A stretch of DNA of 32,213 bases from Opitutus sp. GAS368 (GTDB lineage: Bacteria > Verrucomicrobiota > Verrucomicrobiia > Opitutales > Opitutaceae). The number at the start of each line of letters is the position of its first letter. Position 1 is the stretch's first letter. Where the stretch lies: positions 1 to 32,213 of the forward strand of contig CAMBVX010000031.1 in assembly GCA_945871085.1 (NCBI GenBank). Direction: 5' to 3'. Under the pieces are notes generated by a model, which saw only the letters and a list, made by a program, of their open reading frames with translations, was not told where the DNA came from and made no database searches. Below are positions 1,137 to 2,581 of this stretch, one piece after another. A program made the translations under genes and the position numbers.

Positions 1137-2120
1137 ATGAAAGTCCTCGTGACCGGCGCCGCCGGCTTCATCGGTTACCACGTCGCGCGCCGCCTCGCCG
1201 AGAGCAAACGCTGCGAAGTGCTCGGCGTGGATGTGATCGGCGACTACTACGATCCGGCGCTGAAACGCGCGCGGCTCGCCGAACTCGCGGCGTGCACGAC
1301 GACCGAAGAATTTCGTTTTGTGCAGGGAGATTTCGCTGACGCGGAAAAGTTTTCCGCGCTCGTGGCGCACTTCAAGCCCGCCTATGTCGTCCACCTCGGC
1401 GCGCAGCCGGGCGTGCGCTACAGCATCGAAAAGCCTGCCGCTTACACGCACAGCAACCTCGACGGTTTCGCCAGCGTGCTCGAGGCCTGCCGCCGCACGC
1501 CTCCGAAACACCTCGTGTTCGCCTCCAGCAGCAGCGTCTACGGTGCGGGGGCGAAGGCGCCGTTTCGCGAGGACGACAACACCGACCAGCCCGTTTCCTT
1601 CTATGGTGCGACGAAAAAGGCCAACGAAGTTATCGCGCACAGCTACGCGCACGTGCACGGCCTCAACATCACCGGCCTGCGTTTCTTCACCGTCTATGGG
1701 CCATGGGGTCGCCCCGACATGGCACCGACGCTTTTCGCGCGGGCGATCTGCGAGGGCAAGCCGCTGAAGCTCTTCAACGAGGGGAAAAATCTCCGCGATT
1801 TCACCTATGTGGACGACATCGTCGACGGCGTCGTGAAGGTCCTGCTCTACCCACCGGCCGAGCGCCCCACCCCGCCGGTCCGCATTTTTAACCTCGGCCA
1901 TCACCGTCCGGTTGAGACCGTGCTCTTCGTCAAAATGCTCGAGCAATTGCTCGGCAAGACCGCGCAAATCGAACGCCTCCCGCCGCAGACGGGCGACATG
2001 TTTGAAACCTGCGCCGACCTTACCCGCATCCAAGCGGCCATCGGATTTGCGCCCAAAGTTTCCCTCGAAGAAGGACTGGGCAAATTCGTCCAGTGGTTTC
2101 GTAGCTACTATGAACTTTAA
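1137..2120 (+). CDS. UDP-glucuronate 4-epimerase, NAD-dependent SDR family
   Basis: This extended short-chain dehydrogenase/epimerase of 327 residues is complete. The Rossmann nucleotide-binding motif GAAGFIG is at residues 7-13. The catalytic region has a serine-rich FASSSSVYG strand near residues 130-138 and the YxxxK pair in YGATKK (Tyr156, Lys160). Segments such as GVRYSIEKP, RFFTVYGPWGRPDMA and RDFTYVDDIVDGV match the UDP-glucuronate 4-epimerase group (CapI/LpsL type), which interconverts UDP-GlcA and UDP-GalA for capsule, LPS or other surface glycans in the cytoplasm. The start ATG follows GCAGG, one of the few purine-rich leaders here. No other glycan-synthesis gene is adjacent, so the pathway is inferred from the family alone. 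A neighbouring specificity, such as UDP-glucose 4-epimerase, is less likely. Confidence 0.85.
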   Translation: MKVLVTGAAGFIGYHVARRLAESKRCEVLGVDVIGDYYDPALKRARLAELAACTTTEEFRFVQGDFADAEKFSALVAHFKPAYVVHLGAQPGVRYSIEKPAAYTHSNLDGFASVLEACRRTPPKHLVFASSSSVYGAGAKAPFREDDNTDQPVSFYGATKKANEVIAHSYAHVHGLNITGLRFFTVYGPWGRPDMAPTLFARAICEGKPLKLFNEGKNLRDFTYVDDIVDGVVKVLLYPPAERPTPPVRIFNLGHHRPVETVLFVKMLEQLLGKTAQIERLPPQTGDMFETCADLTRIQAAIGFAPKVSLEEGLGKFVQWFRSYYEL

Positions 2121-2121
2121 C

Positions 2122-2200
2122 CGCTAATTTTCGCTAATCACCGCTAATCGAAAACCATGCGGTGCGAGTCAGGATTAGCGGAAATTAGCGCCGATTAGCG
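2122..2200. repeat. Mirrored triple CGCTAAT repeat with 10-bp phasing
   Basis: Directly after the epimerase stop codon, CGCTAAT occurs at 2122-2128, 2132-2138 and 2142-2148. Its reverse complement ATTAGCG occurs at 2174-2180, 2184-2190 and 2194-2200. Within each arm the copies start exactly 10 bp apart, and a 25-bp spacer separates the arms. As RNA it could fold into a long stem; as DNA it presents six copies on one helical face. It fills most of the gap between two co-oriented genes. Confidence 0.8.
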
Positions 2201-2212
2201 ATTCTCTTTTGC

Positions 2213-2581
2213 ATGAAAACCATTCTCCTCCTCACCGCCTCGAATATCTTCATGACCTTGGCGTGGTATGGTCATTTGAAGTTCAAATTCCTCGAGGGCA
2301 AATCACTCTTCATCGTGATCCTCGTATCGTGGGGCATCGCGTTTTTTGAATACTGTCTGATGGTGCCGGCGAACCGTGGCGGCTACCTCAGCGGCGAGTT
2401 CACGGGCTACCAACTCAAAATCATCCAAGAGTGCATCACGCTCGCGGTGTTCGTGGTCTTCGCGTGGGTCGTGCTGAAAGAGAAACTCGCGTGGAACTAC
2501 GCGGTGAGCTTCGCGCTGATCATGCTCGCGGTGTGGTTTGCCACGGCCTTCAAACCCGCGGTGCCGCCACCGACGCATTGA
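2213..2581 (+). CDS. DMT-superfamily small membrane protein (DUF486)
   Basis: This 122-residue, strongly hydrophobic protein has about four predicted membrane segments (roughly residues 3-20, 34-50, 74-92 and 95-112). The order and wording of motifs, including NIFMTLAWYGHLKF near the N-terminus, ANRGGYLSGEFTGYQLKIIQE in the middle and a C-terminal FKP, match the DUF486 family of drug/metabolite-transporter-like proteins. The substrate is unknown for the family. It follows the epimerase by 92 bp that are filled by the CGCTAAT mirrored repeat, so co-transcription is possible but uncertain. The ATG follows a T-rich leader without a Shine-Dalgarno sequence. Confidence 0.8.
   Translation: MKTILLLTASNIFMTLAWYGHLKFKFLEGKSLFIVILVSWGIAFFEYCLMVPANRGGYLSGEFTGYQLKIIQECITLAVFVVFAWVVLKEKLAWNYAVSFALIMLAVWFATAFKPAVPPPTH

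Follow-up and report, generated by a model that had tools for sequence, protein, structure and literature searches.

Two host genes on the plus strand are separated by 92 bp in the window, by which we mean the whole stretch of 32,213 nucleotides of Opitutus sp. GAS368 that was analysed, and most of this intergenic gap is filled by two inverted arms (Table 1). The seven-letter word CGCTAAT occurs three times in the left arm, at 2122-2128, 2132-2138 and 2142-2148, and its mirrored form ATTAGCG three times in the right arm, at 2174-2180, 2184-2190 and 2194-2200, with a start-to-start distance of 10 bp throughout. The linkers, read on the plus strand, are TTT and CAC in the left arm and GAA and CCG in the right arm. 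With 31 nt each, 81% complementarity and a distance of 23 nt between them, the arms represent terminal inverted repeats such as are expected of a MITE, and the 25 bp between their innermost words hold no GxxExxY gene, the gene that is found at this position in the longer relatives described below. The outer edge of the right end reads ATT here and GTT in many other copies.

Table 1. Position of the array and of the adjoining genes in the window.
Feature	Position	Strand	Basis or remark
Upstream host gene, NAD-dependent epimerase/dehydratase	1137..2120	+	stop codon ends 1 bp before first word
Left end: AAC and three direct CGCTAAT words, 10-bp period	2119..2149	+	word scan, arm alignment
Spacer, gene-free; position of the GxxExxY gene in full relatives	2150..2172	.	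comparison with relatives
Right end: three mirrored ATTAGCG words, 10-bp period	2173..2203	-	word scan, arm alignment
Downstream host gene, DMT_6/DUF486 protein	2213..2581	+	

A preliminary description of this DNA had reported a mirrored, exactly phased array of six copies, and its coordinates and layout hold at every word. It had also placed the array far beyond chance, which is borne out: when up to two mismatches are allowed, the doublet CGCTAATNNNCGCTAAT occurs four times in the window against a mean of 0.21 in shuffled sequence, and none of 100 shuffles reaches four. The exact 10-bp period fits a protein that reads one face of the DNA helix, as was likewise proposed. A scan of the window for arrays of three words of the type [CA][AG]C[ACGT][AG]A[AGT] at periods of 7-11 finds only these two arms, and a search of the window against Rfam 15 gives no match above the gathering score. 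As a separate observation, GAAAACCAT is found twice, 65 bp apart, in the spacer of the array (2150-2158) and in the opening stretch of the DUF486 gene (2215-2223); this pair may be due to chance or may be the trace of an insertion.

A family of gene-less arrays

The genome to which the window belongs (G000; 7.37 Mb in 630 contigs; other G labels denote related genomes) contains 39 exact 10-bp doublets CGCTAATNNNCGCTAAT, against none for a control pattern read backwards, and at least one exact doublet is present in 13 of the 38 genomes searched, G000 included. The array is therefore not alone in G000 or among its relatives, and the absence of other copies, which the preliminary description had named, together with a lack of effect on transcript ends, as the result that would speak against it, was looked for and is contradicted. 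Of 16 arrays checked, 15 lie outside long mechanical open reading frames.

Some characteristic features are common to the array loci that were read. The arms face inwards wherever both are present, and about a dozen loci have a single arm only. In most gene-less copies the distance from the first to the last exact word is 66-143 bp; of 32 gene-less arms, 21 have AAC directly before their outermost exact word. Degenerate word slots, tallied for position-specific decay, number just 9 among the gene-less arrays. Spacers are often unrelated between different copies. Two copies in G000 are 94% similar across 191 bp, and their outer flanks are unrelated, so that they occupy unrelated sites.

Arrays that enclose a GxxExxY gene

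In several genomes the same word bounds a longer form, in which a gene lies between the arrays. In G017 the copy extends over 429 bp, and the open reading frame that it encloses matches TIGR04256 (1e-38) and PF13366 PDDEXK_3 (1.5e-39); copies in G003 and G004 likewise enclose a GxxExxY gene within CGCTAAT arrays, so that the word of the window array is shared with the gene-bearing elements of these three genomes. This full form is found at loci L117, L132, L220, L222 and L224. The enclosed gene is single, encodes about 130 aa and is a member of the GxxExxY family (TIGR04256/PF13366), which is named for its motif; the complete element measures about 0.45 kb.

The association was measured across the order. 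GxxExxY matches number 114 in 29 of 38 genomes, and 91 loci (93 matches) were examined, the other 21 matches being fragments or weaker and left out; after removal of 2 of the 91 loci with a flank under 200 bp, 89 were scored. The array score was blind to word and to orientation, called for two mirrored words per side at a period of 7-12 and had a maximum of 28. A score of 27 or above was obtained at 55 of the 89 loci. Of the two controls, outer DNA taken at these loci gave it in 0 of 174 stretches, and flanks paired across different loci gave it in 5 of 176; at 26 or above the corresponding counts are 72 of 89, 2 of 174 and 13 of 176, and 17 of the 89 loci score below 26. In an oriented test with the pattern [CA][AG]C[ACGT][AG]A[AGT], inward arrays of at least two words occur on both sides at 49 of 89 loci versus 0 of 174 control stretches, and on one or both sides at 69 of 89 versus 13 of 174, leaving 20 of 89 loci with no inward array by this word pattern. 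Outward arrays are present at 21 of 89 loci, with no accompanying inward array at only 2. The words differ from locus to locus (CACGGAG, CACAGAG, CGCGAAT, CACTAAT, CACGGAT, CGCGGAT, CGCGAAA, AACGAAG and others), and the periods are mostly 8, 9 or 10.

In the G000 assembly, no GxxExxY gene of the CGCTAAT type was found. Its four family matches are all of other kinds, and the one among them with clear arrays has the word CACGGAA. The window copy is thus without an evident enzyme today, and the CGCTAAT copies in G000 may be relics or may await an enzyme from outside.

A plasmid-borne element was considered and rejected, as no more than 8 of 72,556 plasmid records have a GxxExxY relative (E ≤ 1e-5, with either query). 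By eye, two-sided arrays are seen in three of these eight (L303, Bacteroides; L304, Bernardetia; L305, Sphingomonas), the Gemmatirosa plasmid (L302) has a clear array, in the form of a hairpin, downstream only, and the remaining four have no clear array. On the Sphingomonas plasmid, the GxxExxY gene and its CGCGAAG-type arrays lie between fabD and fabG in a fatty-acid gene cluster; on the Bacteroides plasmid, CACAGAG-type arrays enclose a GxxExxY copy that adjoins radA.

Covariation of word and protein

A wider scan covered 84,980 species genomes, using an alignment of CGCTAAT- and CACTAAT-type proteins as query, and the best 80 of 230 relatives were kept. These best 80 come mostly from Verrucomicrobiota and Planctomycetota, together with one acidobacterial, one Sumerlaeota and one Balneolia assembly; no array was seen at the last three loci (L230, L272 and L279), the downstream flank of L230 ending with its contig. 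Within the best 80 of 230, CGCTAAT arrays are found in at least one flank of 12 of the 14 closest relatives (at least 72% identity), often as 3+3 words at 10 bp. Two of these 14 are again the elements of G003 and G004, so that the new support amounts to 10 of 12. The two exceptions are L225, which has no CGCTAAT array, and L230, which has none upstream and whose other flank is cut short.

Three-word arrays of the window type are concentrated near the gene in this sample. For 75 of the best 80 relatives (L218 and L219 being left out, and flanks of at least 200 bp being required), at least one flank carries such an array no more than 300 bp from the gene at 47 loci, versus 2 of 66 loci in the control at 600-1100 bp, and both flanks do so at 25 of 75 versus 1 of 66. 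Outward three-word arrays occur near the gene at 31 of the 75 loci; they are accompanied by an inward array in the same flank at 21 of these loci, giving a hairpin-like layout, and in the opposite flank at 2, and the remaining 8 lack an inward array.

The word follows the protein. Among 165 proteins, from which four with long or fused reading frames (L126, L136, L146 and L147) and two repeats of others (L218 and L219) were left out, a word could be set on both arms at 80 loci, giving 22 distinct words within the limits of a pattern that restricts which words can be seen. Over these 80 loci, protein distance correlates with word difference (Mantel r 0.58, Spearman 0.48), a value reached in none of 2000 permutations, the largest of which gave 0.14, and with the difference in period (r 0.51). 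For nearest relatives that are 20-60% diverged, the words agree to within one letter in 67 of 80 cases, versus 25% of all pairs. Gene and word are therefore inherited jointly, and covariation alone does not prove that the protein recognises the word.

Presence and absence at orthologous sites

Nine genomes of the genus (G000-G008) were compared at the orthologous site that holds the element in G003. The full element is present in G003 and G004, gene-less remains in which the start of the gene is still present are found in G008 and G001, and neither arrays nor gene occur in G006, G007, G005 and G002. In G000, a gene-less array of the CACGGAT type lies at this site beside apparent remains of a CGCTAAT end. 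At L224, an intact element directly adjoins an internally deleted copy, in which the first 57 nt of the gene remain. Because the start of the gene is left in these gene-less copies (G008, G001 and L224), they derive from gene-bearing copies, and not the reverse. A target-site duplication is unrecognisable at the G003 site, the one site resolved, where the empty sites are too diverged to define one.

The site of the window array also varies among these genomes. The array is present in G000, a decayed array in G007 and CACGGAT-like words in G006, and in G005 and G002 the two host genes are adjacent with no array between them. Partial matches were obtained in G008, G001 and G004, none of which yielded the two genes as neighbours, and in G003 the flanking genes had no match.

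Two further observations concern the words themselves. In G006 (L149), the orthologue of 2121-2212 carries CACGGAT-like words in place of CGCTAAT and shares the CAC linker and a similar spacer with the window copy; the spacer similarity to G000 is suggestive but weak, being equalled in 40 of 2000 shuffles, and the difference in word possibly reflects rewriting in place or the insertion of a second element. In G001 (L057 and L201, compared with L009 and L117), several words of the same arrays have been altered alike, from CGCTAAT to CGCTCAT, a uniform shift that hints at concerted change.

The predicted nuclease

The structure predicted for the enclosed protein is confident (132 residues, mean pLDDT 94.6) and displays the hallmarks of a PD-(D/E)XK enzyme, namely the D, the (D/E)xK core and an alpha/beta nuclease fold. 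The catalytic residues are almost invariant among the 165 proteins: E30 is conserved in 164, D70 in 164, E/D80 in 165, K82 in 165, Q94 in 156 and Y98 in 160. The best fold match is SSO0001 (Foldseek E 8.5e-4; Z 8.7, 100 residues at 4.9 A), which we take to be Cas4. E ≤ 0.001 is reached by only 1 of 383 Foldseek matches and Z ≥ 8 by only 1 of 998 chains; exonucleases and restriction-enzyme-like folds follow with weaker scores. Sequence searches against solved structures were less informative than the fold search and gave weak matches only, the best being 2f8l (E 0.089), with T7 endonuclease I at E 0.7. The modelled protein resembles RecB/Cas4-type nucleases in its fold, its D-ExK core and its QxxxY pattern, presumably the RecB-type motif, and differs from SSO0001 in length (132 versus about 200 residues) and in being encoded alone between word arrays. 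The GxxExxY protein is a predicted stand-alone RecB/Cas4-like PD-(D/E)XK nuclease; these matches support the fold and not the function. An origin of the nuclease in anti-phage defence or in phages was rejected on the single protein tested, that of L117, for which neither PADLOC nor PHROGs gave a family at E ≤ 1.

Interpretation of the array and alternative explanations

The array family, its association with the gene, the covariation of word and protein and the presence or absence of arrays at orthologous sites together suggest, as the most likely identity of the window array, a MITE-like, non-autonomous form of a nuclease-linked insertion element. We consider it probable, with good though not full confidence, that its arms are the paired ends of a small insertion element that has lost its gene, and that the nuclease of the element itself reads the word. 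In a complete element, ends of the form AACC-word-NNN-word-NNN-word point inwards around a lone GxxExxY gene, whose product would recognise its own 7-bp word. The 10-bp period leads us to infer joint binding on one helix face, where the three words of each end could be occupied by several subunits that bring the two ends together. The nuclease would then cut the DNA at the edges of the element, or possibly act on a hairpin formed by the mirrored ends, and repair of the break would leave a copy at a new site, usually an intergenic one. Copies that have lost the gene and retain both ends could still be mobilised in trans, and the window copy would be among these.

Three other explanations deserve consideration. 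The arrays might be operator sites of a host DNA-binding protein, belonging to a regulon or to the nucleoid, in which the 10-bp phase serves cooperative binding and the GxxExxY gene is an autoregulated target. This would agree with the exact helical phasing, with constant words set among variable linkers and with the placing of copies between co-oriented genes such as the pair in the window. However, operator sites would hardly be expected to come and go at two orthologous sites or to turn up as a whole-element copy at an unrelated one; moreover, the mirrored arrays flank the gene on both sides, rather than being located at a promoter, and their word tracks the protein across different hosts. 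We therefore regard operator sites as very unlikely. A somewhat better case, still an unlikely one, can be made for an RNA or single-stranded DNA hairpin, acting as a transcript 3' end, an mRNA stabiliser or an RNase III site and spread as a palindromic repeat, with the words forming only its stem. The window transcript folds strongly (-36 kcal/mol, z -5.27, with none of 200 shuffles as good), and in 69 arrays of 3+3 words the mirrored linker bases agree at 202 of 414 positions, compared with 140 +/- 10.5 after shuffling (largest value 172). Some elements also have a full hairpin beside the gene. In the window copy, however, the linkers are mostly mismatched and the words exact; the words repeat in tandem with a period of 10 bp, which resembles that of DNA (8 or 9 bp at other loci), and a hairpin alone leaves unexplained why the word follows the nuclease. 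Of the mRNA 3' hairpin put forward in the preliminary description, the strong fold thus stands, and the layout is better explained by the ends of an insertion element. A nuclease acting on the hairpin formed by the mirrored ends may be an alternative mode of the same element. Complete 3+3 hairpins precede the GxxExxY gene at L241, L253, L266 and L236, and at the first three of these they also follow it, a layout of hairpins beside a gene that is reminiscent of REPtrons.

The GxxExxY protein might also be a passenger or homing-type nuclease that invaded palindromic arrays spread by another, unseen transposase. In favour of this idea, G000 contains many CGCTAAT arrays and none of its four GxxExxY genes is of the CGCTAAT type, and at the site of the G003 element its CACGGAT array lies beside what appear to be remains of a CGCTAAT element. 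But the gene-less copies that retain the start of the gene come from gene-bearing ones, and the word covaries with the gene. Moreover, no open reading frame over 76 aa is present in the three longest other inter-word spans (L050 and L053), and the four Y1 transposase loci found in G000 have no arrays, all of which makes a passenger improbable. The reading as ends of a nuclease-linked insertion element accordingly remains the one that we prefer.

Comparison with known systems

Among known systems, the closest are REP/BIME repeats and their RAYT enzymes, in which short dispersed palindromes flank the gene of a small DNA-processing enzyme and many copies lack the gene (PMC3733652). There are also differences: the enzyme here is a predicted PD-(D/E)XK nuclease and theirs is an HUH/Y1 tyrosine transposase, and the ends here are phased 7-bp words. 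A REP palindrome is defined by a GTAG (or CGTC) tag at one end, and the verrucomicrobial species Opitutus terrae is described as rich in GTAG repeats (PMC3733652). No GTAG or CGTC tag is found at the ends of the arrays, in keeping with the earlier remark that they are unlike ordinary REP elements. A link to a RAYT transposase, which had also been suggested, was rejected: none of the four PF01797 (Y1) loci of G000 has CGCTAAT words or three-word arrays of the word type, and the GxxExxY nuclease is what is associated with the arrays instead.

As in MITEs, gene-less copies are produced when a gene-bearing element loses its interior and keeps its inverted ends. Unlike MITEs, however, these copies end in word arrays with free linkers, rather than in a fixed terminal inverted repeat, their spacers are often unrelated, no target-site duplication was recognised at the one site resolved, and the parent element holds only GxxExxY and no known transposase. 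The intervening sequences of 23S rRNA, with their S23 or four-helix-bundle reading frame, are likewise small elements with complementary ends and one small reading frame, and they differ in their protein, in a period of 7 and not 10 and in being excised from rRNA by RNase III. Direct heptamer repeats are reported before the S23 reading frame in the Coxiella 23S rRNA insert (PMC4990558).

In the same genomes as the GxxExxY elements, several TIGR02436 four-helix-bundle (S23-like) genes were seen by eye to have period-7 arrays on both sides (L168-L197), with words such as CAGGAGT, GTAGCGA and GAGAGTT. This sample comprised 30 loci; 25 had their flanks scored, and the other 5, shorter and close to contig ends, were skipped. 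The arrays look like a parallel system that recalls the Coxiella heptamers.

A link between GxxExxY and flanking arrays was not found in the open-access literature searched; a GxxExxY annotation beside a reverse transcriptase is mentioned there (PMC8934634). Since enzyme and end structure differ from those of REP/RAYT, the GTAG tag is missing and no account was found in this literature, we rate the array element linked to GxxExxY as a new kind, measured against open-access literature only, with movement by the nuclease as its putative mode of spread.

Implications and outlook

The covariation of word and nuclease suggests a kind of bacterial insertion element that has not been described before. 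Our confidence is evenly divided on the wider proposal that several phyla harbour very small insertion elements of this undescribed class (about 0.45 kb), in which a lone RecB/Cas4-like nuclease would move DNA bounded by phased arrays. The nuclease would have diversified to some twenty words or more (22 different words of the CRCNRAD type were seen, at periods mostly of 8-10), each forming a matched, orthogonal pair with its own enzyme; the gene-less arrays would be MITEs and may account for a sizeable share of the intergenic repeats so far unexplained in these genomes, and TIGR02436 may run a parallel period-7 system.

If the proposal is true, the widespread and so far unexplained GxxExxY family would gain a role, and dispersed repeats of Verrucomicrobiota, Planctomycetota and other phyla would gain an origin. 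The elements would be very small for carriers of their own nuclease, and a lone PD-(D/E)XK nuclease, with no recognised transposase, would be able to sustain a mobile element. Finally, the pairing of nucleases of about 130 aa with short words would amount to a testable natural code of DNA recognition, whose specificity and spacing could be read from nature.
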